Below are positions 7,262-24,355 of a DNA stretch of 33,756 nucleotides, piece by piece. The stretch's first letter is position 1. Every line of letters starts with the position of its first letter. The DNA lies in contig CAIKNA010000183.1 of NCBI GenBank assembly GCA_903828645.1, positions 1 to 33,756 on the forward strand. Direction: 5' to 3'. A program made the position numbers and the translations under genes. The notes under the pieces were generated by a model. That model searched no databases. It saw only the letters and a list, made by a program, of their open reading frames with translations, and was not told the DNA's origin. This DNA comes from an uncultured Bacteroidales bacterium (GTDB taxonomy: Bacteria; Bacteroidota; Bacteroidia; Bacteroidales; FEN-979).

Positions 7262-9130
7262 ATGCAGAAATATGATATAATTGTGGTTGGTGCAGGGCAT
7301 GCCGGTTGTGAAGCTGCAGCCGCTGCAGCCAACATGGGTTCGAAAGTTTTATTGATTACAATGAACATGTTGAACATGGCCCAGATGTCGTGCAACCCCT
7401 CGATGGGAGGAATTGCAAAAGGACAGATTGTTCGGGAAATTGATGCTTTGGGTGGATATTCTGCGATTGTGACCGATCATACGATGATACAATTCAGGAT
7501 GCTGAACCGGTCAAAAGGGCCGGCGATGTGGAGTCCAAGAGCGCAAAATGACCGCGTGCTCTTCTCGGTTGAATGGCGGAACCGGCTGGAGAGAACAAGG
7601 AATGTCGATTTCTGGCAGGATTCAGTGGTTGATATTGAGGTTAAGCAGGGAAAAATATCGGGTGTAAAAACCGGGTTGGGACTGGTCATTAAATGTAAGG
7701 CGGTTATTCTTGCAAACGGAACATTTTTAAATGGGTTGATTCATATCGGTGAAAAGCATTTTTCGGGTGGAAGAATGGGGGATGGGGCTTCTCTGGGATT
7801 AACGAAAAGGTTGATTGATTTCGGATTTGAAGCCAGCAGGATGAAGACCGGAACCCCGGTGAGAGTGGATGGCAGATCCCTCGATTTTAAGAAAATGGAA
7901 GAGCAACCGGGTGACGATATTCCGGGGAAATTCTCCTATATGAATACCCCGGCATTGAAAAAGCAGCGAAGTTGCTGGCTCACCTATACCAGCCCGGAGG
8001 TGCATGACATCCTGAGGACGGGATTCGATAAATCACCGATGTTTTCAGGCAGGATAATGGGGAAGGGGCCAAGGTATTGTCCGTCTATTGAGGATAAAAT
8101 CGATCGCTTTGCAACAAAGGAGAGACACCAGCTTTTCATTGAACCGGAAGGGTGGGATACGGTGGAGTATTACGTTAACGGGTTCTCTTCATCTCTTCCT
8201 GAAGATGTTCAGTTCAAAGCATTGAGAAAGGTAAAAGGCTTTGAAAAAGCCCGGTTTTTCAGACCGGGTTATGCCATAGAATATGATTATTTCCCGCCTC
8301 TCCAGTTGAATTTCACGCTGGAAACAAGGCTGATCGAAAACCTTTATTTTGCCGGACAGATCAATGGAACAACCGGATACGAGGAGGCTGCCGCCCAGGG
8401 TTTGATGGCGGGGATCAATGCGAACCTGAAGATAAGAGGGGAAAGTGAATTTATCCTTAAGCGTTCGGATGCCTATATTGGCGTCCTTATTGATGACCTG
8501 ATAACCAAGGGAACTGAAGAACCTTACCGCATGTTTACTTCAAGAGCAGAATACAGGATTTTACTGCGGCAGGATAATGCCGACCAACGGCTGACAAAGC
8601 TCTCTTTTGACATAGGTCTTGCTTCACGGGAAAGGCTTGAAACGGTTACGGAAAAATACCGGAAGGTAAATGATTTCACCTCTTTTTTGGGTGGATTAAG
8701 CCTCCAACCTGCTAAAATTAATGATTTACTGGCCAGGAAAAACACCAATGGCATCGCTCAAAAGCAGAAAGCCGCTGCAATATTATTAAGGCCGCAGCTG
8801 TTTCTTAAAGACATGATGGAGGAGGTTGAGGAGGTCGGGAATTTTGCCCGGGAGAATGGTTTTAACGATGAGGAAATTGTTGAGGAGACAGAATTGAAGA
8901 TCAAATATGAGAGCTATATCGTAAAGGAGCAGGAGCTGGTTGATAAGCTGGCAACCCTTGAAAATTATGCTTTATCAGCCGGTTTCGATTATTCAAAACT
9001 GATCTCTTTGTCGCATGAGGCCAGGGAAAAACTAAACAAGGTTCAACCTCGAACCATCGGGCAGGCATCGAGGATCAGCGGAGTTTCTCCGGCTGATATT
9101 TCGGTACTGATTGTCTACCTGGGTCGTTGA
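7262..9130 (+). CDS. mnmG: tRNA uridine-5-carboxymethylaminomethyl modification enzyme MnmG (GidA)
   Basis: The FAD-dependent partner of MnmE in forming the cmnm5 modification at the wobble uridine of certain tRNAs. Its 622 residues are full length. The N-terminal dinucleotide-binding motif reads 'DIIVVGAGHAGCEAA'. Conserved blocks follow: 'MSCNPSMGGIAKGQIVREIDALGG', then 'RLKTGTP'-type text as 'RMKTGTPVRVDGRS', 'PRYCPSIEDKI', 'GQINGTTGYEEAAAQGL' and 'TSRAEYRILLRQDNAD'. A helical C-terminal domain ends with 'ARTIGQASRISGV'-like text. The ATG at 7262 directly precedes the FAD motif. The gene is bracketed by two parS-type sites. In many bacteria mnmG/gidA is origin-linked. Confidence 0.97.
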   Translation: MQKYDIIVVGAGHAGCEAAAAAANMGSKVLLITMNMLNMAQMSCNPSMGGIAKGQIVREIDALGGYSAIVTDHTMIQFRMLNRSKGPAMWSPRAQNDRVLFSVEWRNRLERTRNVDFWQDSVVDIEVKQGKISGVKTGLGLVIKCKAVILANGTFLNGLIHIGEKHFSGGRMGDGASLGLTKRLIDFGFEASRMKTGTPVRVDGRSLDFKKMEEQPGDDIPGKFSYMNTPALKKQRSCWLTYTSPEVHDILRTGFDKSPMFSGRIMGKGPRYCPSIEDKIDRFATKERHQLFIEPEGWDTVEYYVNGFSSSLPEDVQFKALRKVKGFEKARFFRPGYAIEYDYFPPLQLNFTLETRLIENLYFAGQINGTTGYEEAAAQGLMAGINANLKIRGESEFILKRSDAYIGVLIDDLITKGTEEPYRMFTSRAEYRILLRQDNADQRLTKLSFDIGLASRERLETVTEKYRKVNDFTSFLGGLSLQPAKINDLLARKNTNGIAQKQKAAAILLRPQLFLKDMMEEVEEVGNFARENGFNDEEIVEETELKIKYESYIVKEQELVDKLATLENYALSAGFDYSKLISLSHEAREKLNKVQPRTIGQASRISGVSPADISVLIVYLGR

Positions 9131-14851: not shown

Positions 14852-15757
14852 TTAAAACAGCGGTTTATCTTTTTTGCTGAGCCGCCTGATCATGACCAGT
14901 TCATACACGGCATAGATGTAATGAGCCCATACGCCGGCGAGCATGACGATGAGGGTGATGATCATCCACAGGGGGGCGATCGGCGTCCACAGCTCACGGG
15001 AGGGGACTTCTGCCTTATAATATTGTTTGTGAACTCCCCAGTTTATGATATTTTGTCCCTGTACGAAGCCAAATTTGTCATTTTCTTCTATTTTAGCCAC
15101 CACCATGAGGTTTCCAAGCGTATCCCCGACAATCTCTTTAGGAAACTCCATGGTACCCGTACCTTGTTCATCCAGGGCGATTTCACCGATTTTCAGGAGG
15201 CTGAAGAGCCGCGGGATATAAATGAGCACCTTTTCCTTGGGAATGGCAATCTCTTCGCCTTTTTCATTTTTCTCAGTTGCCGTGACCTTCAATATCCTCA
15301 GGGAATCCTCGATGCTGAAAAAGAGACGGATTTTGGCAGGCTTTGCCTTGAAGGAGGCTTCTGCGGCGGGATATTTGGCGTTGCCCGCGAATTTTGCAGA
15401 AAATGCAACCATCCCGTCTTTATCTGCGGGCAGTCCTGAAGATGCAGCTTTAATTACGGCATTACCCTCCTGGTCTGTTTTTGCCTTGCCCAGCAGTTTG
15501 CAGATCGTGCCGTTTGACGCTGTCAGTTCCACCCATGCATTTTTCAGGGCAAGCGTTGCATCTCCTTTTTTAATGCCTAGCGTTGCGGTGAGTGTCACCG
15601 TATCTGCGCCGCACAGGTAATTCAGCGCGAGTTTTGATTCAACAGCCGTGCTGGTCGAATCGGTATTTCCTTCGGCAAAGGATCTCTCCGGCTGAATGAC
15701 CAGGGAACCCAGTGCGAGAAGAAAAAACATACATGCGAAAACTCTTTTCATATGCAT
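14852..15757 (-). CDS. Membrane-anchored Ig-like protein of the electron-transfer operon
   Basis: 301 residues; I do not recognise a named family. A signal peptide (residues ~1-28) is followed by about 230 extracytoplasmic residues with beta-sandwich, Ig-like text ('LTATLGIKKGDATLALKNAWVEL', 'TDQEGNAVIKAASSGLPADKDG'). A C-terminal helix (~262-285, 'LWMIITLIVMLAGVWAHYIY') precedes a basic cytoplasmic tail. It has no CXXCH. It is the last gene of a tight minus-strand operon, 24 bases after the NrfD-like gene, so it is probably an accessory or assembly subunit of that complex (inference). ATG 15751 is an equally good start. Confidence 0.7.
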   Translation of the reverse strand: MHMKRVFACMFFLLALGSLVIQPERSFAEGNTDSTSTAVESKLALNYLCGADTVTLTATLGIKKGDATLALKNAWVELTASNGTICKLLGKAKTDQEGNAVIKAASSGLPADKDGMVAFSAKFAGNAKYPAAEASFKAKPAKIRLFFSIEDSLRILKVTATEKNEKGEEIAIPKEKVLIYIPRLFSLLKIGEIALDEQGTGTMEFPKEIVGDTLGNLMVVAKIEENDKFGFVQGQNIINWGVHKQYYKAEVPSRELWTPIAPLWMIITLIVMLAGVWAHYIYAVYELVMIRRLSKKDKPLF

Positions 15758-15781
15758 TGGTTGAGTAGTTCCGGTGAATGA

Positions 15782-17095
15782 CTAAATTAACACATCCTCT
15801 TTTTTGCCTTCTCCCTCTATTCCGGAGACCGGAACAATGGTGATGAACTTCGATGCCAGGGTAAAGAGGAGGCAAAAAACTGCGACTCCGGTGGCTGTGA
15901 GGCTCCATTCAACCCATGTTGCCGAATAATTCAGCCATTCGGGACGTGCATCCTGGATCGGAAGATAGGGGGATTCAAGTGTCGGGACGACGATGATATA
16001 GCGGTTGAGCCAGAGCGCGATCACGACCACGACGGCTGTAAGGGTAATATTCCTGATGGTCCTGAACCTTGCAATACCCACCACGATGAGCGGCAGCAGC
16101 ACCCCCACGTAATTGGAGATGATGAACGGCCAGTAGAATTTTTTAAAGAGCAGCTGGATCAGCAATTCATCATTTTTTTCTGAGCCATACCACTTTGTGA
16201 GGTAATCGCTGAAGGTGAAGTAGCCGAAAAAGGCGGCGAGAACAAGCATGATCACGCCAACAGATACGAAATGTTTTTTAGTGATATACTCTTCAAGATG
16301 GTACACTTTCCGGAAGACCCACATGCTGATGATGAGGACGGCGCTCCCGGAGTAGACGGCTGCAATGACGAAATAAGGTCCGAAGATGGTGCTGTGCCAG
16401 CCGGGTTGCAGGGTGACGCTGAAAATCCAGGCCAGTACCGAGTAAACGATGATGGCGATGGCGATGACCATGGTGGCCATGATGTCGGTAGCCCTGTTTA
16501 ACCGTTCCTGCTGCTCCGGGGTTCCGGTATAGCCAAGCGCCAGTGTCTTATAGATTTTTTTTCTCCATTTCGGGAGCTGGAGGAGTTCATAATCCCTTAA
16601 TGTAGCCAGGTCGCGCAGTATGGCAAGATAGAGGAAGATAAAACAGCCGAAAATATCGGTTGAGATGGCGATAACGTCCCAGGTGATGGGCGATTGGATT
16701 CTCCCGAAAAGGATCAGGTATGGCAGGCGGTCGAGCCGGCCGATGCAAAGAAGAATGAAGCAGGGGCCGATGAGCAGTGAAATGACCGTGATAAATTCTG
16801 CCATGCGTATAACCGGCTTGCGCCAGGCTGTTTTAAAGAGGTGGAGGGTGCCGGAGATAAGCGCCCCAGCGTAACTCACTCCCATGAAGAAAATGAAATT
16901 CACAATGTATACGCCCCATACCACGTTGTCGCGCATGCCAGTAACGATATGGCCGTTAAGCACCTGGTCCATAAATGCATAGAAGCCAAGTCCGATCACA
17001 CCAAGGAGGAAGGCGATCCAGGCATATCCCTGTATGGAAGTCCGCTCGAGCTGAGGGGCAAAATCTCTTAATGGATTTTTTTGTTGTGGGTCCAT
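15782..17095 (-). CDS. NrfD/PsrC-family quinone-interacting membrane subunit
   Basis: 437 residues with about ten hydrophobic helices, in the pattern of NrfD, PsrC, HybB and ActC. These proteins exchange electrons between the quinone pool and a partner iron-sulfur subunit (family knowledge). Family-like features include the N-terminal 'GMRDNVVWGVYIVNFIFFMGVSYAGALIS' block (positions ~54-83) and 'GPYFVIAAVYSGSAVLI'. It carries no redox-cofactor Cys motif, as expected. Two bases separate it from the ferredoxin gene upstream, the classical FeS-NrfD pair. It probably faces menaquinone in the inner membrane. Confidence 0.9.
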   Translation of the reverse strand: MDPQQKNPLRDFAPQLERTSIQGYAWIAFLLGVIGLGFYAFMDQVLNGHIVTGMRDNVVWGVYIVNFIFFMGVSYAGALISGTLHLFKTAWRKPVIRMAEFITVISLLIGPCFILLCIGRLDRLPYLILFGRIQSPITWDVIAISTDIFGCFIFLYLAILRDLATLRDYELLQLPKWRKKIYKTLALGYTGTPEQQERLNRATDIMATMVIAIAIIVYSVLAWIFSVTLQPGWHSTIFGPYFVIAAVYSGSAVLIISMWVFRKVYHLEEYITKKHFVSVGVIMLVLAAFFGYFTFSDYLTKWYGSEKNDELLIQLLFKKFYWPFIISNYVGVLLPLIVVGIARFRTIRNITLTAVVVVIALWLNRYIIVVPTLESPYLPIQDARPEWLNYSATWVEWSLTATGVAVFCLLFTLASKFITIVPVSGIEGEGKKEDVLI

Positions 17096-17097
17096 GG

Positions 17098-18060
17098 TTA
17101 CTTTTTATTTTTTTTACTGTATGGCGTGTCCTTGTATCTTTCCTGAATAACCGGGTCAAGGTTGTTGAATCCGCGGTCAACTTCGAATTGCCGCTCTACG
17201 GGAGGGAGGTAATAGACACACGGGCGGGTTCCCAGGGTTTCAAGATAACGGTAACCGGCCCGGTCGCTGATGAGTTTGCTGAACTGGAAGGTTTCGGTGC
17301 CATTGGTGACCGTATCCTCGTCAACATCGCCAAAATAAATGACTCCCATCGGGCAGGCAGCGGCGCAATAGGGAATTTTGCCAACCCGGATGAGGTCGGG
17401 GCAAAAGTCACACTTTGAAACGGTACCTTCCTTACCCGGGCTGCCTGCTTCGGGGGAATAGGGCTCTTTATCGTCCTCAAATTCCTTGTAATGCTTCCAC
17501 GCAAAAACACGGGTTGAGTAGGGGCAGCCGGTCATACAGAATTTACAGCCGATGCACCGTTCATTGTCGATAAGCACAATGCCGTCGCTGCGCTTGTAGG
17601 TGGCCCCGACCGGGCATACGCTCACGCACAGCGGGTTGTCGCAATGGAAGCAGGGTTTTGGGAACCAGTAGGGCGATGTTTTTTCAGAATCCTGGAGCAG
17701 GTACACCTTCATAAATTCCTGGCTTTTGGGAAGGTGGTGCCCTTTCTGACAGGCTTCGACGCATTTCCGGGCGTTTTTGCACTTTCCAAGGTCGATGACC
17801 ATCACAAATTTACGGCCGGGAATCCCGTGATGGGACTCTTCGCGTGAAACGCGGGGCAGTTTCAGCAACCCTTTGTCGACCTCCATGATTTCACCATCGG
17901 TGGTAAGAACTTTGACCTTTTCACCGGTTTCGGTGGCGGTTGCATCTACATATGCCGCGATCAGTCCGCTGCCAATGGCAACACCGGCTCCGGCAATAAG
18001 TCCTTTTTTGAGGAACTGACGACGGGAGTTTTTCTGGTTTTTATTCAATTCTTCTTCCAT
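17098..18060 (-). CDS. Tat-exported four-cluster ferredoxin subunit (NrfC/PsrB/DsrO type)
   Basis: 320 residues. A twin-arginine leader 'SRRQFLKKG' with a hydrophobic core predicts folding before export. Cys groups fit up to four cubane clusters: C137-C140-C145-C149, C169-C172-C175-C179, C217-C220 with C232-C236, and C94-C100-C104. The last group is one ligand short: the usual C-x2-C-x2-C-x3-C reads 'CKNARKCVEAC', with Ala at the second Cys. The protein should sit on the outer face of the membrane and link NrfD with the haem subunits. It lies 11 bases after the cytochrome b gene and 2 bases before NrfD. There is no molybdopterin subunit nearby, so it is unlikely to be part of a classical Psr/Phs reductase. 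Confidence 0.92.
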   Translation of the reverse strand: MEEELNKNQKNSRRQFLKKGLIAGAGVAIGSGLIAAYVDATATETGEKVKVLTTDGEIMEVDKGLLKLPRVSREESHHGIPGRKFVMVIDLGKCKNARKCVEACQKGHHLPKSQEFMKVYLLQDSEKTSPYWFPKPCFHCDNPLCVSVCPVGATYKRSDGIVLIDNERCIGCKFCMTGCPYSTRVFAWKHYKEFEDDKEPYSPEAGSPGKEGTVSKCDFCPDLIRVGKIPYCAAACPMGVIYFGDVDEDTVTNGTETFQFSKLISDRAGYRYLETLGTRPCVYYLPPVERQFEVDRGFNNLDPVIQERYKDTPYSKKNKK

Positions 18061-18071
18061 GTGCAGGAATG

Positions 18072-18695
18072 TTAGTGTGATTCATGGTAACCATTGATCA
18101 TGCTTTTAAAGTTGCTTGTAGGATTTTTCCCGATGGTGCAAAAATAGACATGTACACACATGATAATGCTGACTGCAAAGCCTGCCGTGATATGAAAGAG
18201 GTCGGTCAGGTCAAGTCCGCTTAAGCCGACAAAGCTTTTGACGGTGATTTCAGGGTAGAGCAGCCCCCATCCCGAGAGGATCAGGAACGGGACAAATCCG
18301 TACATCAGCACTACGTAAGTAACCTGTTGCAGGGGATTGAATTTCTGCTCCTCCGTTACCGGGAAAGGTGCGTTTTCTTTTTTAAAAAGTCCGACGGTAT
18401 AGTAAATGAACTGCTTTTGAAGACGAATCAGGAATCCTTTCACGGGAATAACATAATAGGCGCCATTGGGGGTGAAGAGGTTGCCGAGAAAAAACAACCC
18501 GTAGCTGACGGAGAGGATGATTCCGGCGATGTTGTGCACGGAAACGGCGGCATTGAATTTCACCACGGTTTCCGGATTTGAAAACTGGATGCTTAACCCT
18601 GTGATGATCAATATCAGGCAGAGAATCGCATTTGTCATGTGCCAGATCCTGATCCAGACAGGATAGAGGTAGAGTCGTTCGTTTTGATGGTTCAT
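18072..18695 (-). CDS. Di-haem cytochrome b subunit (b561/FdnI/PhsC-like)
   Basis: 207 residues with four or five membrane helices. The first helix begins at 'PVWIRIWHMTNAILCLILII' with haem-ligand candidate His19. His54 lies in 'VSVHNIAG', and two more candidates are in 'LFHITAGFAVSIIMCVHVY' near residues 168 and 182. The arrangement matches cytochrome b subunits of formate dehydrogenase, thiosulfate reductase and b561 types. It lies nine bases after the seven-haem cytochrome gene and eleven before the ferredoxin. A complex with both cytochrome b and NrfD resembles Hmc/Dsr-like or Geobacter Cbc-type quinone:cytochrome oxidoreductases (established families; the analogy is inference). Confidence 0.88.
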   Translation of the reverse strand: MNHQNERLYLYPVWIRIWHMTNAILCLILIITGLSIQFSNPETVVKFNAAVSVHNIAGIILSVSYGLFFLGNLFTPNGAYYVIPVKGFLIRLQKQFIYYTVGLFKKENAPFPVTEEQKFNPLQQVTYVVLMYGFVPFLILSGWGLLYPEITVKSFVGLSGLDLTDLFHITAGFAVSIIMCVHVYFCTIGKNPTSNFKSMINGYHESH

Positions 18696-18704
18696 AGGTT
18701 CGTT

Positions 18705-19724
18705 TTATTTTTTAATGCGCAGCGCCGCATGGATCATGATAACCAAAATGGTAAGTGCGAAAATTGCAAGGCTGATGTAGTTCAGGGTGTTGCTTTTATC
18801 GGGGCCGATGGTTGTGGCATCGCCCATCAGCAGTCCCTTGATGATCCCTTCTTTCTGGATATTTTCACTGACCTTATGCTTGTAAAGTGATGCATAAAGG
18901 ATTGAATTTTTTGAGTGGCACGATTCGCACTTTCTCACGGCCATTTTTTTGGGCATGATATGATGTGCCACAACCAGGGTGTCGTCATTTTTAGCATGAC
19001 ATTCGATGCAGCGCACATTGGTGAAGTGCGATGCCTGGTTTGGCAGCCATTCATGTTTGCTTAAAATATTCGGTTTTGCCTTGTCGGTGAGGAGCTGGTA
19101 GTTTTTCAAATCCCCGTGACAGTTAAGACAAATCATATTATCGTAGGTAATGGTCTCTTTAAGGTTCTCATTGGTACGGGCATTGATCTTATAGGTATGT
19201 GCGTTGTGACACATCCAGCAGGTAAAATCAGCGCTGTGTTTTTCGGAATGGACGCTTGCCTGGAATTCCGTTTCAATCTGTTCAAATTTAAATTTCGCAT
19301 ATTTCTCATCGCCGCCATGGCAGTCGATGCAATTGGCCTTGGCTTCCATACGCAGGTTTCCGGCGTGGGGGAAGGTGCCATAATCTTCGGAATGGCAATC
19401 GGTGCATTTGAACCCGCGGTGGTTTGATACATAAAAAACATCGCGGCTCAGCACCAGCTCTCCGTACATCCGTTTTGTGACTGTTTTTTTCGACTCCGGA
19501 TTTTCGTAAGTATATTTTGACTGACCATGACATTTGAGGCAGTTTTCATTCTCCGTGGCATTTTTAAACCCCGAGAGGTCGACCCTGGAAGGTTTTTCCT
19601 CTTCTGCCTGAGAGGGTTTTCCCGGGGCTGTATCCGATGTTTTTACCAGGGTGAATGCGAGGGTAAACAGCATCAGCAGTACCAGGACGACCCACGCTGG
19701 CCGGATGTTGGTTTTATAGATCAT
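18705..19724 (-). CDS. Seven-haem membrane-anchored cytochrome c
   Basis: 339 residues with exactly seven CXXCH motifs, at C62, C107, C132, C169, C199, C239 and C266. They lie between an N-terminal signal/anchor helix (residues ~9-27) and a C-terminal helix (~316-334), so the haem domain should be periplasmic and tethered at both ends. Extra His (for example H102, H120, H159 and H224) could serve as distal ligands. It is the first gene of the five-gene minus-strand operon, and a hairpin terminator lies just upstream. Expected role: accept electrons from, or deliver them to, the cytochrome b/ferredoxin/NrfD core. No active-site haem of the NrfA CXXCK type is present, so nitrite reduction by NrfA-like chemistry is not indicated. 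Confidence 0.93.
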   Translation of the reverse strand: MIYKTNIRPAWVVLVLLMLFTLAFTLVKTSDTAPGKPSQAEEEKPSRVDLSGFKNATENENCLKCHGQSKYTYENPESKKTVTKRMYGELVLSRDVFYVSNHRGFKCTDCHSEDYGTFPHAGNLRMEAKANCIDCHGGDEKYAKFKFEQIETEFQASVHSEKHSADFTCWMCHNAHTYKINARTNENLKETITYDNMICLNCHGDLKNYQLLTDKAKPNILSKHEWLPNQASHFTNVRCIECHAKNDDTLVVAHHIMPKKMAVRKCESCHSKNSILYASLYKHKVSENIQKEGIIKGLLMGDATTIGPDKSNTLNYISLAIFALTILVIMIHAALRIKK

Positions 19725-19766
19725 AGTTGTTGGTGTGGTGAGTTATTCGGGGTGGTTTGCAAAAAG

Positions 19767-19805
19767 AAATGGGTGTTAACGGGAAAGCCCGGTTAACACC
19801 CATTT
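19767..19805 (-). terminator. Strong hairpin terminator after the mono-haem cytochrome gene
   Basis: Arms 19767-19783 and 19788-19805 pair over about 17 bases (core GGGTGTTAAC with GTTAACACCC) with one bulged base and the loop AAAG. On the minus strand the stem is followed by a T-rich run (TTTCTTTTTG). It separates the cytochrome c gene at 19834-20247 from the five-gene operon. Confidence 0.8.
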
Positions 19806-19833
19806 TGTGAATCATTGTTGAATCATCATGCAC

Positions 19834-20247
19834 TTACTTCTTCAATGTACGCATGAAGGCAACCAATGCCCAGCGATCGTTGGCTTCTGGAATTTTCTTT
19901 TCATAGGCAGGCATTTCATCACGGCCTACATTGGTACGAAAGAAAAGTTCGCCATCGGTGGAAGCCTGGAAGGCGGCGGATGAGAAGTCGCCCGGATTGG
20001 TCTTTAATGAAGCGGCTTTTGGTCCGTCACCCAAACCTTTGCTTCCGTGGCATGATTTGCAATGTTTTGCCCAAAGTTCCTTACCGGCAGCGGCGTCGGC
20101 TTTTGCAGGAGCTTTCACGGATTTGTCTTTATCAGGAACCGGCCATGGTTTTGCTTTTGCCTGTGCCTGAACGGCGTTTCCAAAGAGGAAAACTACAGCA
20201 ATGACTGCAGTTACCATAATTGTTGCGATTTTTGTTGTTGTTTTCAT
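19834..20247 (-). CDS. Small class I-type mono-haem cytochrome c
   Basis: 137 residues. A signal peptide (~1-28, ending 'AVQAQA') is followed by one haem motif, 'HCKSCHGSKGLGDGP' at C63-H67, and a probable axial Met112 in 'RDEMPAYEKKI'. The C-terminal helix 'DRWALVAFMRTLKK' is typical of cytochrome c class I. It is a soluble periplasmic electron shuttle. It begins 42 bases after the DUF5777 gene stops and is followed by a strong terminator, so it probably closes a three-gene unit with DUF5777 and the cytochrome lipoprotein. It could bridge the inner-membrane complex and the outer membrane (inference). Confidence 0.92.
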   Translation of the reverse strand: MKTTTKIATIMVTAVIAVVFLFGNAVQAQAKAKPWPVPDKDKSVKAPAKADAAAGKELWAKHCKSCHGSKGLGDGPKAASLKTNPGDFSSAAFQASTDGELFFRTNVGRDEMPAYEKKIPEANDRWALVAFMRTLKK

Positions 20248-20289
20248 AGTTTTGATTTTTGTTAGTAAACAATTTGAAGAATGGGTGAA

Positions 20290-21348
20290 CTAAAAGGTCC
20301 ACAACCGGGTAATATTGAATCCAAGAAGGATATATCCGTTATAGGGGTTGTTGTAATTATACATGGCGGTTTCCTGCGGCACCAGACCGTTAGCTGCCGT
20401 CATGAAGATCTGGAAAGTATGGGTGCTGGTTGAAATTTCGACTCCTACGCCCATGTTGGGCCATGGAGCCGTGTTGAGATAGGTGAAAAGAGGTTGGGAA
20501 TAGCTGAGCATCACCGATGTTTGCGGGCTGACTTTGAGCCTGCCGATCCCGGAGAGGCTGATGTTGTCGTTTTTCATGCCATTTGCATGGTTGTTTGCCA
20601 TTTCGGCCATGTCGACCAGGTTGTAATGCACCCATGAAATTCCCAGCTGTGCAGAAAATTCTTTGCAGAACCGGCGGGCGAACATGAATTCGGCATAGTA
20701 TGAAAACCTGTAAGAGGCCTTGAAGGTTTTATCAAAAAGGGAGCTCAGGTCGGTAGCGTTTGCACCCTTGAGCCCTGTTGCCTGGTTGTAAGTGATATAG
20801 TTCAGCCCGTACATGGTATCGTTTTGTACGGCCTGGTTCTTGATACTAGATCTGAAAGCGGTATCTTTAACAAGAGAATTGTAATCGAGATCCGATGACA
20901 ATTTATTGTTTCCAAGGAAGGCTTTATCCCTGCAATCGATGGCAACATCGCCGAAAAAGGTGATGGTGAGCGGGAATCCTCCTTTACGCTGACGGACGAT
21001 GTTGTACTTCAGGCTGAAATCCTGCAGTCTTTTCACTTTAGTGGTTCCAAAACCGACCTCAAGGTTTTTGGTAATGGTATAATTCATGCCGAGCCGGATG
21101 TTGGAGGAGCCCCAGATTCCCCAGAGATCGGACCATTTTTGCTGGATCGTTCCAAAATCGTGCTGGATGACAAATTCGAGTGTTTTTGCCGGGGGCAGGG
21201 AAACGGTTTGGTCAGCGATGAAATACCCGCTCTCAAATGGCGCTTTTACCAATGGTTTTTGTGCCGGCTGTTCAGGAACCGAATCCTGGGCAATCACCAT
21301 TCCAACACCACTCATCATGAAGATGGCGCCGAGCAATAATCGTTTCAT
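20290..21348 (-). CDS. DUF5777 family outer-membrane beta-barrel protein
   Basis: About 352 residues from ATG 21348. The frame extends to a TTG at 21402, but the signal peptide 'MKRLLLGAIFMMSGVGMVIA' starts at 21348. The conserved DUF5777 opening is clear: 'PFESGYFIADQTVSLPP', 'TLEFVIQHDFGTI', 'DLWGIWGSSNIRLGMNY', 'LEVGFGTTKVKRLQDFSLKY'. Strands alternate to the end, finishing with an aromatic C-terminus (…LWTF), as in outer-membrane barrels. In Bacteroidota this family tends to sit beside c-type cytochromes and YceI-like genes (family knowledge). Here it lies between a cytochrome lipoprotein and a soluble cytochrome, so a porin role in electron transfer is a reasonable hypothesis. Confidence 0.87.
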   Translation of the reverse strand: MKRLLLGAIFMMSGVGMVIAQDSVPEQPAQKPLVKAPFESGYFIADQTVSLPPAKTLEFVIQHDFGTIQQKWSDLWGIWGSSNIRLGMNYTITKNLEVGFGTTKVKRLQDFSLKYNIVRQRKGGFPLTITFFGDVAIDCRDKAFLGNNKLSSDLDYNSLVKDTAFRSSIKNQAVQNDTMYGLNYITYNQATGLKGANATDLSSLFDKTFKASYRFSYYAEFMFARRFCKEFSAQLGISWVHYNLVDMAEMANNHANGMKNDNISLSGIGRLKVSPQTSVMLSYSQPLFTYLNTAPWPNMGVGVEISTSTHTFQIFMTAANGLVPQETAMYNYNNPYNGYILLGFNITRLWTF

Positions 21349-21402
21349 GTAACCCATCATATATGTATGCATTTCGATTAAATATTTGTGTGAATAATTC
21401 AA

Positions 21403-21798
21403 TTAGTTATTTTTCGCGCCCTGCCTGATCCATTTATAGGTTGAATCGGCATTTGCCTTGTTGCAATATTGTGACATCCCGCCACCGGTTGCCATCTGCT
21501 TATAGAGGATGCTGTTTCCCGGAGTTACGGTGTCGATCATGCCTTGCATGCTCATCAATGACTGGTAAGACTTCCCGGCGACCAGTGTCGGTGAATTCTG
21601 ACCCGTTCCGTGGCACATGGTGCATTTTGCCGAGAAGATGGGTTGTATTTCCCCGGAAAAACTGATTTTATTCTCATTGGGAGAGGGCGGGGCGATGACG
21701 ACAGGAGGATCCGTTACAATTAGATCCTTCGTACAGGATGAAAAGATAAAAAGCACGAAAAAGATCGTAATCAGATTTTTCAACTTTTTGCTTTGCAT
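21403..21798 (-). CDS. Mono-haem cytochrome c lipoprotein
   Basis: 131 residues. A lipoprotein signal ends 'FIFSSC' with the lipidated Cys at 22. A Pro-rich linker ('DPPVVIAPPSP') leads to a haem domain with 'IQPIFSAKCTMCHGTG' (C59-H63). The 'EIQPIF...C..CH' pattern is common in Bacteroidota surface or periplasmic cytochrome lipoproteins. A second, non-haem Cys lies in 'SQYCNKANADSTYKWI'. It is the first gene of a probable operon with DUF5777 and the small cytochrome c. A bidirectional terminator at 21881-21904 separates it from the multihaem gene upstream. Confidence 0.9.
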   Translation of the reverse strand: MQSKKLKNLITIFFVLFIFSSCTKDLIVTDPPVVIAPPSPNENKISFSGEIQPIFSAKCTMCHGTGQNSPTLVAGKSYQSLMSMQGMIDTVTPGNSILYKQMATGGGMSQYCNKANADSTYKWIRQGAKNN

Positions 21799-21880
21799 AA
21801 TGAATTTTTTTGGGTTGAATGATTCGTTGATGGTTTTTATGAAGCAATGATAATGAAAATTATTTTCTTGTTTGAAAAAA

Positions 21881-21904
21881 AGGCTTCAGGAGGTCCTGAA
21901 GCCT
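21881..21904. terminator. Bidirectional rho-independent terminator
   Basis: AGGCTTCAGG (21881-21890) and CCTGAAGCCT (21895-21904) form a perfect 10-bp stem with the loop AGGT. A run of A precedes it and a run of T follows, so it can work in both directions. It ends the minus-strand multihaem transcript 22 bases after its stop codon. Confidence 0.92.
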
Positions 21905-21926
21905 TTTTTATGATCATAGAACTTTT

Positions 21927-23291
21927 TTAAAGGTTCGCAGCAGTCATGGCTGCAATTGTGTTGGTCAGAAGAGCTGTCACATACTGGGTATTGTGAATAC
22001 CAAGGCTGTATTCCCTTAAGCAGAACTGGAAGTTGATGAGGGCACCCGTTTGTACATTCAACAGTTTGGGGAATTTGGGTTTGGTCATATTTACAGCATT
22101 TGTGCTGTAAGGATCTCTCCAGTAACCGGCATCGTTTGTTCCCGGGGTGTAGATGTCAAGATAACCATCCTGGTTGCCTGTGGCAACACCTGCCCACAAA
22201 TTCGATGAAGTGGCGTCTTTGTGAAGAATATCATGTCCGCCGCCGGCGGCATTGATTTTCGTTGCGAGTTGGTCAAGCAGGGATTTTACATTGCTCCTGG
22301 TCGTTGCCCATTTCGAAGAGGATGCACTCAGGGGGCTGTCAGCATGACATCCGGTTACATTGCAGCCATTGAAGTTCCAGGTTGTACCTGATCCCAGCGG
22401 GGTTTCAATTGCGTTCCTTACGTTGAAGGAGTGTCCGCCGGCAACACCGGTCATTGGGGTTGCCATATGGCAATCCTGGCAGGAAGCTACCGTTGTATGT
22501 TTTGAATTGGTGTAAGAAAGCGTACCGGGGAATTCAATGGCACCTTTACCTGCATATACGCCGCCAACGGCACCGTAATGGATGTGCATCCTGTAAGAAG
22601 GTCTCAGGTACTTATTTTTTGCACCTGCAGCACTGTCGTACATAACGATCAGCGGGAAATTCTTCACAGAGTCATAGTTGAGCAAACGGCCTGAAGGATC
22701 GTTGCCGCAGGTGAGCGGACGGGGCTGGTGGCATTTTACGCATAAATTGCTCCTGCTGCTGTCCTGGGTCAGATCGATCGTCTTGGCACCACCCCACATG
22801 GTCATTGGAACCGGGGCTGTGGATGTCAGGGCAATATCTGCAGTGGTATAAGTAGTATGCAGACTGGTGTGGCAGGTAAAGCAACTGATCGAACCGATTG
22901 CATCGGAAGCAGTTGTGTTGTAAGGATTGGTCCATTTCTGTGTGCCTGCATCAAATGTAAACACCGTTGAAACGTTGTTCTGACACATGTAAATAAAGGC
23001 CTTTTGAGCATGACACGGGGTGCAACCGGTATTTCCTGCTTCTGAGAAGGCCGTGGTTCCGAAATTATGTTTCGACATTTCAAATTCGGTGGCGATTTCA
23101 TCCACAACGGCTTTTGCATGGCAGGCTTTACATTGTTCGGTTGCGTCTTTACCGTCTTTACCGTTAGCGCCGGTCGGGCCGGTAGCACCTGTGGCGCCCT
23201 GGGGGCCTTCCTTGGTGCAGGAAGCTAAAATCAAACACGCCGCCGCGATCATCAATCCGGCGGAAAAAAAGAATTTTTGTAAATTTTTCAT
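21927..23291 (-). CDS. Multihaem cytochrome c lipoprotein with collagen-like N-terminal stretch
   Basis: About 454 residues from ATG 23291. The frame continues upstream to 23426, but the lipoprotein signal 'MKNLQKFFFSAGLMIAAACL' with 'ILASC' (Cys25) begins here. Residues ~29-50 are Gly-X-Y repeats ('GPQGATGATGPTGANGKDGK'), probably a stiff spacer. Five CXXCH motifs follow, at C54, C90, C137, C184 and C271. There is also a CX4CH motif, 'CNVTGCH', at 310-316, giving five or six haems. Unpaired His-rich segments ('RMHIHYG', 'HSFNVRN') may provide distal ligands. It is probably an outer-membrane or surface lipoprotein that handles electrons at the outside (inference). It stands alone between a terminator and the regulator, with two Fnr-like sites upstream. 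Confidence 0.88.
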   Translation of the reverse strand: MKNLQKFFFSAGLMIAAACLILASCTKEGPQGATGATGPTGANGKDGKDATEQCKACHAKAVVDEIATEFEMSKHNFGTTAFSEAGNTGCTPCHAQKAFIYMCQNNVSTVFTFDAGTQKWTNPYNTTASDAIGSISCFTCHTSLHTTYTTADIALTSTAPVPMTMWGGAKTIDLTQDSSRSNLCVKCHQPRPLTCGNDPSGRLLNYDSVKNFPLIVMYDSAAGAKNKYLRPSYRMHIHYGAVGGVYAGKGAIEFPGTLSYTNSKHTTVASCQDCHMATPMTGVAGGHSFNVRNAIETPLGSGTTWNFNGCNVTGCHADSPLSASSSKWATTRSNVKSLLDQLATKINAAGGGHDILHKDATSSNLWAGVATGNQDGYLDIYTPGTNDAGYWRDPYSTNAVNMTKPKFPKLLNVQTGALINFQFCLREYSLGIHNTQYVTALLTNTIAAMTAANL

Positions 23292-24341: not shown

Positions 24342-24355
24342 TTGAGATATGTCAA
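24342..24355. promoter_or_regulatory. Fnr/Crp-type palindrome upstream of the regulator gene
   Basis: TTGAGATATGTCAA fits TTGA-N6-TCAA and is identical in 13 of 14 bases to the reverse complement of the 23420-23433 site. It is centred about 60 bases upstream of the -7 box, a class-I-activator-like position, and ends one base before the asd stop codon. Confidence 0.65.

Follow-up and report, generated by a model that had tools for sequence, protein, structure and literature searches.

A conserved Bacteroidales gene set as a proposed FNR-type-controlled electron-export operon: a Cbc-type cytochrome pair joined to a DUF5777 barrel and haem lipoproteins

Introduction

Among the closest described counterparts of the system analysed here are quinone-linked cytochrome complexes of Geobacter and the porin-cytochrome conduits of the outer membrane. 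In the Geobacter Cbc5 complex, CbcA is a seven-haem and CbcB a b-type cytochrome (PMC10470525), CbcC carries 11 haems and CbcD a single one (PMC10470525, PMC10989804), and CbcBA is described as operating near -0.2 V (PMC12307469). CbcL consists of a b-type cytochrome fused to a multihaem cytochrome c, and a table published in 2018 counts five CbcL/MtoC/MtrH homologues in Bacteroidetes (PMC6295460). In the porin-cytochrome conduits, MtrB folds 26 strands around a ten-haem wire (PMC7198977). Here we analyse nine open reading frames (ORFs) on the minus strand of a contig from an uncultured Bacteroidales bacterium, which run from position 23291 down to 14852 with intergenic gaps of 2–128 bp. The window is this entire contig (C183, 33,756 bp), one of the 409 contigs of a 5.1 Mb metagenome-assembled genome (MAG).

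An initial annotation had proposed that the nine genes (g1 to g9) form a conduit that leads electrons from menaquinone to the cell surface. We find that the gene set is conserved far beyond chance, and with moderate confidence we read it as an anaerobic electron-export operon under FNR-type control, in which a Cbc-type quinol-oxidising chain would end at haem lipoproteins of the outer membrane.

Results

The gene set is conserved but mosaic

Genes were labelled g1–g10 from Pfam and NCBIfam profile searches of the window proteins (Table 1). A match to the seven-haem cytochrome g5 is present in 40 of 61 relatives, namely in 18 of 19 genus members (counting the own genome), 15 of 18 in the rest of the family and 7 of 24 in the rest of the order. 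Larger draws gave 65 of 295 order genomes (E 1e-30) and nine of 395 phylum genomes, own included (E 1e-20); seven of these nine phylum matches are weaker and lie inside ORFs of ~480–510 aa from one family. The g5 relatives at 20 loci belong mostly to Bacteroidales/Bacteroidetes MAGs, several of them lake-named (Lac Pavin, Loclat, Kiruna), and none of 72,556 plasmid records contains a g5 match.

We collected 47 g5 loci, four duplicate contigs having been left out beforehand; 37 of them, window included, reach 3.5 kb or more beyond g5 in both directions. The other ten are flanked too briefly, and one of these, L092, has no DUF5777 either. Counted up to 9 kb from g5, the cytochrome b gene g4 occurs in all 37 loci, the DUF5777 barrel gene g7 in 33, g8, the g9 family and g10-like regulators in 32 each, and g6 in 30. 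The iron-sulphur, NrfD and anchor genes g3-g2-g1 were found in 21, always all three. Once the four distant 13-haem loci (L093–L096), which have no DUF5777 within 9 kb, are set aside, g4 and g7 accompany g5 in 33 of 33 flanked loci; the initial annotation, for which a lack of co-occurrence in other genomes would have counted as refutation, withstands this check. Across the order, DUF5777 is found in 64 of 65 genomes with g5 as against 56 of 230 without it (Fisher test 6e-30, with memberships counted by hand and kinship uncorrected), and it lies within 5 kb of g5 at at least 46 of 66 places, out of 67 g5 places in this draw. The gene set is thus a mosaic, in which the core of cytochrome b, seven-haem cytochrome and DUF5777 is constant and the trio is optional (21 of these 33 loci).

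Some relatives carry further cytochromes next to the core. A rhodanese-domain protein with a ten-haem cytochrome occurs in the distant relatives L031 (7661–10042), L060 (6269–8673) and L063 (11038–13217, where the cytochrome runs off the contig end), c554-family four-haem cytochromes in L037, L039 and L063, and 14–19-haem cytochromes in L036 (2–1279), L037 (6758–8173) and L039 (12366–15167). The multihaem protein of L039 also has a b561-type domain. L037 and L039 are without the NrfD unit; the L036 sequence is too short to tell.

A cytochrome b/seven-haem pair of Cbc architecture

Four histidines of g4 (H19, H54, H168 and H182) are invariant in an alignment of 14 sequences. In 19 aligned g5 sequences, the seven CXXCH motifs are accompanied by seven further invariant histidines ahead of the C-terminal helix, candidate second haem ligands. 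This is the pattern expected if all haems were bis-histidine ligated, and a wire would fit it better than a catalytic protein. Against solved structures, sequence searches with g5 gave weak matches (best E 0.0045). In three loci (L090, L091 and L092), g4 and g5 are fused into one protein of 526–554 aa; the two proteins therefore probably work together, as in CbcL (PMC6295460). By its predicted domains, the pair has the architecture of Geobacter CbcBA/CbcL, a likeness in make-up.

The initial annotation had joined this pair to g3 and g2 in one inner-membrane quinone module. The quinone link is retained, and the module falls into two separable units, the constant b/seven-haem pair and the optional trio. 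A gene-for-gene match of g5-g4-g3-g2-g1 with CbcABCDE was considered and rejected, because CbcC is a cytochrome with 11 haems and CbcD one with a single haem; only the CbcA and CbcB part matches in make-up.

The presumed outer-membrane side: a narrow barrel model and two haem lipoproteins

AlphaFold2 models g7 as a barrel of 12 strands (pLDDT 70.4, pTM 0.65), with most strand blocks above 80 and a low-confidence insertion at residues ~150–220. The top Foldseek matches are FapF, a COG4313 channel and NanC, with query-normalised TM-scores of ~0.4; larger barrels such as FadL, OmpG and OmpC score lower, and KdgM is listed too. Searches by sequence against solved structures gave no meaningful match for g7 or g9. 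A standard geometric estimate places the backbone radius at ~11 Å for 12 strands and 24 Å for 26. As modelled, g7 is too narrow and cannot enclose a cytochrome as is described for MtrB (PMC7198977), so an MtrAB-type wire does not fit.

The monohaem lipoprotein gene g8 stands close to the barrel gene: in every one of the 38 loci with a g8 match, it lies at most 187 bp from the match to g7. Its haem motif was detected in 36 of these 38; of the other two, the L058 fragment does not reach the site, and in L048 the motif was seen in a separate comparison, so that the motif is present wherever its site is covered. In L097, g8 was missed by tblastn and detected by blastp.

All 21 aligned sequences, that of the window among them, keep the six haem sites of g9; the form of the sixth site varies between CX2CH, CX4CH and CX5CH (the last in L062). 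Four further histidines are invariant and one is nearly so; a sixth, by reading, occurs at a shifting position. The initial annotation had placed these haems on a collagen-like spacer: lipobox and haems hold, and the spacer amounts to only seven Gly-X-Y triplets (5–10 in the homologues listed), with a collagen profile match below threshold. A Cytochrom_C552 match is likewise below threshold (22.5 bits, cut-off 24.1), and g9 as an NrfA-like terminal nitrite reductase was rejected on its six haem sites and conserved extra histidines. Three loci (L045, L052 and L054) hold two diverged g9-family copies in tandem, one with five CXXCH and a CX4CH, the other with six CXXCH.

Predicted FNR-type control

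The regulator g10, encoded upstream of g9, has an N-terminal CX2CXC motif, and C11, C14 and C111 are invariant in 11 sequences; a further N-terminal cysteine shifts or is missing in distant sequences. We take three N-terminal cysteines plus a central one to be the iron-sulphur ligand rule of FNR-type regulators, and TTGAT-N4-ATCAA to be their site consensus. Across nine close loci the spacer has diverged, except for two conspicuous tandem dyads separated by 7 bp. The pattern TTGAYNNNNRTCAA, picked after this nine-spacer alignment had been viewed, has a site in 20 of 28 regulator-operon spacers. This corresponds to 20 sites in 6.5 kb of spacers versus 15 in the other 527 kb of these loci, a 108-fold density, for which a p-value is overstated since the loci are related to each other. 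The count excludes L059, which has neither a regulator beside the operon nor a box, and, in L060, a second spacer of 34 bp, also without a box. The one match in the window does not reach significance by itself (0.29 expected; at least one in 23 of 100 shuffles). Taken together, regulator and sites make FNR-type, oxygen-responsive control of the operon probable, the sites being predicted. A loose FNR-type match, TTGAGATATGTCAA at 24342–24355 upstream of the g10 gene, hints at autoregulation of g10.

The iron-sulphur/NrfD/anchor trio is an optional unit

In the 42 loci with at least 3.5 kb downstream, the trio is present in 23 and its members are never discordant; g1 is found exactly where NrfD and ferredoxin are. 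It is missing even inside the genus (L048, L049 and L042). A 'four-gene quinone module' was accordingly rejected, as g3-g2-g1 appear and vanish as one unit. A search with the NrfD protein g2 in 13 genomes left five without a match (G009, G006, G024, G043 and G046), while G004 and G011 have a core locus without the trio, yet an NrfD relative elsewhere in the genome (54–60% identity).

The own genome holds two related sets. Contig C285 (L084, 6820–11341) carries a paralogous cluster of an iron-sulphur protein, a 739-aa NrfD-g1 fusion and a cytochrome c, accompanied by a g10-like regulator and an FNR-type box of its own; g1 aligns by blastp with 33% identity over residues 484–738 of the fusion ORF. 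A third iron-sulphur/NrfD/cytochrome c set lies on contig C133 (L085, 1623–9792) beside COX1, COX2 and COX3, and could possibly serve as a quinol:cytochrome c reductase for aerobic respiration. Being optional in the loci and having NrfD relatives elsewhere in its own genome, the trio seems to be a quinol:cytochrome c unit in its own right, which may be plugged into different chains.

NrfD-type complexes (DsrMKJOP, NhcABCD, Qrc and ACIII) resemble the trio in joining a periplasmic iron-sulphur protein to an NrfD protein, several with cytochrome partners (PMC8076601); NhcABCD and ACIII were compared by this published description only. The trio differs from them in its own anchor protein g1 and in being separable from the b/seven-haem pair. 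It also departs from DsrMKJOP and Qrc, as equivalog scores stay under the cut-offs. The best NCBIfam models are DsrP for g2 (84.9 bits, cut-off 350) and, among the 25 of 74 models listed for g3, all of which score under their cut-offs, DsrO (169.3 bits, cut-off 200); QrcC (117.6 bits, cut-off 400) and QrcD (37.9 bits, cut-off 570) are both missed as well. The Tat-signal match of g3 is below threshold. In all 13 aligned g3 sequences, window included, 15 cysteines are conserved. One cysteine of what we take to be the canonical ferredoxin motif is missing from the first cluster motif (residues 94–104; CKNARKCVEAC in the window) in 13 of 13, which suggests a three-cysteine cluster. For g1, matches to bMG3/Big_1 are weak and below cut-off, with no clear family.

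DUF5777 beyond the locus

DUF5777 is present in 120 of 295 order genomes (118 over cut-off) and in 153 of 395 phylum genomes (152 over cut-off). We examined 20 DUF5777 loci, 19 from other genomes plus contig C84 of the own genome, taken from the upper part of the ranked list and not at random. A protein of the YceI cluster, named by Pfam through one cluster member, lies near DUF5777 in 18 of the 20, contig C84 among the places where the two occur together. Within ~3 kb, 14 loci have a protein of the g8-like cytochrome cluster, defined by clustering with lipobox and haem not checked member by member, and three others have a Rieske protein, making 17 of 20 together. In Bacteroidota, DUF5777 thus belongs to a widespread cluster with YceI and a cytochrome-type lipoprotein. 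The window resembles this cluster in the proximity of DUF5777 to g8, and differs from it in that the locus has no YceI and couples the module to a quinone-linked cytochrome complex. Among the open-licence PMC papers searched, none names DUF5777.

Gene calls, neighbouring genes and other electron outlets

The profile searches support the nine minus-strand genes as initially described, with corrections to starts and haem counts. The ORF listed for g7 opens at TTG 21402; we dropped this start because the seven closest g7 homologues have a stop near there, and adopted the start common to the homologues (20290–21372). Homologues also place the start of g9 at 23291 and not at the ORF start 23426. 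No molybdopterin family matches any of the nine operon proteins in Pfam or NCBIfam, and the locus, as had been noted initially, has no molybdopterin or named terminal reductase subunit.

Behind the operon, at a distance of 31 bp, a 166-aa riboflavin kinase without the FAD-synthetase half is encoded (PF01687, 14320–14820, minus strand), a homologue of which comes after the cluster in many loci of the genus. A gene for a GldH-type lipoprotein (PF14109, 13876–14376, plus strand) converges and overlaps with it.

Elsewhere, the own genome contains one molybdopterin-oxidoreductase match and no match to MtrB/PioB (PF11854). A haem-copper oxidase is encoded on C133 with its own NrfD unit. On C188, a short NrfA-family match (8092–8262, in a 781-aa frame) scores 20.1 bits, or 26.4 with its neighbours, against a cut-off of 24.1.

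Table 1 Genes and predicted regulatory sites of the operon in the window
Feature	Start	End	Strand	Basis
g1: exported protein, C-terminal membrane anchor, 301 aa	14852	15757	-	weak Ig-like similarity
g2: NrfD-family membrane protein, 437 aa	15782	17095	-	PF03916, E=7.7e-29
g3: iron-sulphur (4Fe-4S) protein, Tat-like signal, 320 aa	17098	18060	-	NCBIfam, alignment
g4: b561/HydC-type cytochrome b, 207 aa	18072	18695	-	PF01292 (Ni_hydr_CYTB), E=1.9e-23
g5: seven-haem cytochrome c, C-terminal membrane helix, 339 aa	18705	19724	-	7 CXXCH
g6: class-I cytochrome c, 137 aa	19834	20247	-	PF00034/PF13442
g7: DUF5777 beta-barrel, 360 aa	20290	21372	-	PF19089, E=2.6e-64; start from homologues
g8: monohaem cytochrome lipoprotein, Pro-rich linker, 131 aa	21403	21798	-	lipobox FSSC, CTMCH (by reading)
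g9: six-haem lipoprotein, 454 aa	21927	23291	-	lipobox LASC (by reading); 5 CXXCH + 1 CX4CH
Weaker FNR-type box, spaced 7 bp from the stronger one	23420	23433	.	kept in the nine-spacer alignment
FNR-type box TTGATATATGTCAA upstream of g9	23441	23454	.	sole TTGAYNNNNRTCAA match in the window
g10: Crp/FNR-family regulator, 231 aa	23547	24242	-	PF00027, PF13545

Discussion

The locus unites an inner half of known kind with a DUF5777 and haem lipoprotein module and, as initially proposed, is built from Bacteroidota-specific parts. A b561-type g4 with conserved haem histidines, adjacent to a seven-haem g5, parallels CbcBA/CbcL, and the g4-g5 fusions of relatives parallel CbcL itself. The gene set departs from Cbc5 in lacking one-for-one counterparts of CbcC, CbcD and CbcE, and from Cbc complexes in general in that an optional iron-sulphur/NrfD unit and the DUF5777 module accompany the pair. 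With MtrCAB and Pcc/Ext it shares a predicted route from the quinol pool through a periplasmic carrier to an outer-membrane barrel with haem lipoprotein partners. The resemblance to porin-cytochrome conduits in logic, suggested from the start, thus extends to the overall route and not to structure, as the barrel has 12 modelled strands versus the 26 described for MtrB (PMC7198977). Unlike in MtrAB/Pcc, no 8–10-haem plug stands beside the barrel in the window, its constant neighbour being the monohaem g8; 10–19-haem cytochromes do occur near the core in some relatives. The place of the surface multihaem lipoprotein of such conduits would be taken by g9, a six-haem lipoprotein whose surface exposure is presumed.

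In the mechanism that we propose, low oxygen would lead g10 to activate the operon. Cytochrome b g4 would oxidise quinol, menaquinone being the usual quinone in Bacteroidota, and pass the electrons to the membrane-anchored seven-haem g5. Where present, g3-g2-g1 would provide a second quinol-oxidising entry that feeds the cytochrome c g6. Periplasmic cytochrome c would then carry electrons to the outer-membrane module, comprising g8 beside the g7 barrel, and g9, from where they would exit to an extracellular acceptor or to one in the outer layer, extracellular reduction being likely. The quinone-linked cytochrome module and the haem lipoprotein partners of the initial annotation are found as described, whereas outward flow, the quinol donor, placement at the outer membrane, the response to oxygen and the final passage through that membrane are what we infer from them.

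Several observations weigh against electron export by this chain. A 12-strand barrel leaves the trans-outer-membrane step unexplained, and the strand count itself derives from a moderate-confidence model with TM-scores of ~0.4. The structure model of g9 is unusably poor (pLDDT 49.7). By the rule that we take to govern surface export, the residues after the two lipoboxes (CTKEG and CTKDL) carry no clear signal, and the surface location of the lipoproteins, and hence the 'to the surface' of the initial annotation, is our inference. The likeness to Geobacter CbcBA is one of architecture; 8 of the 28 spacers are without a strict FNR-type box (L033, L039, L060, L063, L027, L030, L052 and L054, with a one-base variant in L027 and L030); and DUF5777 is far commoner than g5. 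With a haem-copper oxidase and an NrfA-family match in the genome, the locus need not be its sole outlet.

The narrow fold of g7 bears on a different outcome, in which the chain respires a small soluble acceptor in the periplasm, DUF5777 being a 12-strand solute channel and g8/g9 or another haem protein the reductase. Narrow channels (FapF, the COG4313 channel, NanC and KdgM) are indeed among the closest folds, the rhodanese and ten-haem proteins of L031, L060 and L063 and the c554-family cytochromes of L037, L039 and L063 hint at sulphur or nitrogen compounds, and g9 has its sub-threshold Cytochrom_C552 match. However, with six haem sites and extra conserved histidines, g9 could hardly accommodate an open catalytic haem, the loci read share no constant catalytic subunit, and elsewhere DUF5777 partners cytochrome-type, Rieske or copper carriers and not one substrate enzyme; we consider periplasmic respiration possible, if rather unlikely. 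The abundance of DUF5777 (153 of 395 phylum genomes versus nine for g5 at E 1e-20), mostly near YceI (18 of 20 loci), would also suit a general Bacteroidota envelope module of DUF5777, lipoproteins and YceI for lipid, quinone or metal traffic, merely co-regulated here with a cytochrome complex. That 17 of the 20 DUF5777 loci also have a g8-like cytochrome-cluster or Rieske protein, and that nearly all g5 genomes of the order (64 of 65) encode DUF5777 as well, makes such a module improbable.

The direction of flow could finally be reversed, with electrons from an external donor, Fe(II) or a syntrophic partner, running inward to the quinone pool. The lakes in the names of several relatives, which we assume to be stratified, would be compatible with such uptake. 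CbcL/MtoC-type proteins have been proposed to work in both directions (PMC6295460), and for CbcBA of Seep-SRB2 a reverse operation has been proposed (PMC10553843). FNR-type control suits the reduction of acceptors in anaerobic respiration at least equally, and we regard uptake as improbable. Electron export under FNR-type control hence remains our preferred reading.

More speculatively, DUF5777 with a monohaem, Rieske or copper partner might constitute a new narrow-barrel redox gateway of the outer membrane, distinct from an MtrAB wire and common across Bacteroidota. Coupled here to a Cbc-type quinol oxidase, it would form an extracellular electron transfer system of Bacteroidota's own; elsewhere it would work with YceI, perhaps by letting quinone or some other small mediator pass the barrel. 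We hold this generalization to be doubtful.

The view that no described system has exactly this composition stands for the whole set: in the titles and abstract openings of the open-licence PMC papers searched, we found no description of a b/seven-haem pair united with DUF5777, a monohaem and a six-haem lipoprotein. It does not extend to the inner half, which is not new, given its CbcBA/CbcL make-up and the CbcL-type homologues already counted in Bacteroidetes (PMC6295460). By these searches, what is new is the union of this known kind of inner half with DUF5777, g8 and g9 under probable FNR-type control. The literature surveyed offers few molecular details of how Bacteroidota could deliver electrons to external acceptors. 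The locus provides a gene set that is conserved, probably switched in response to oxygen, and open to knockout and electrode assays, and DUF5777, a common barrel, gains its first redox context here.

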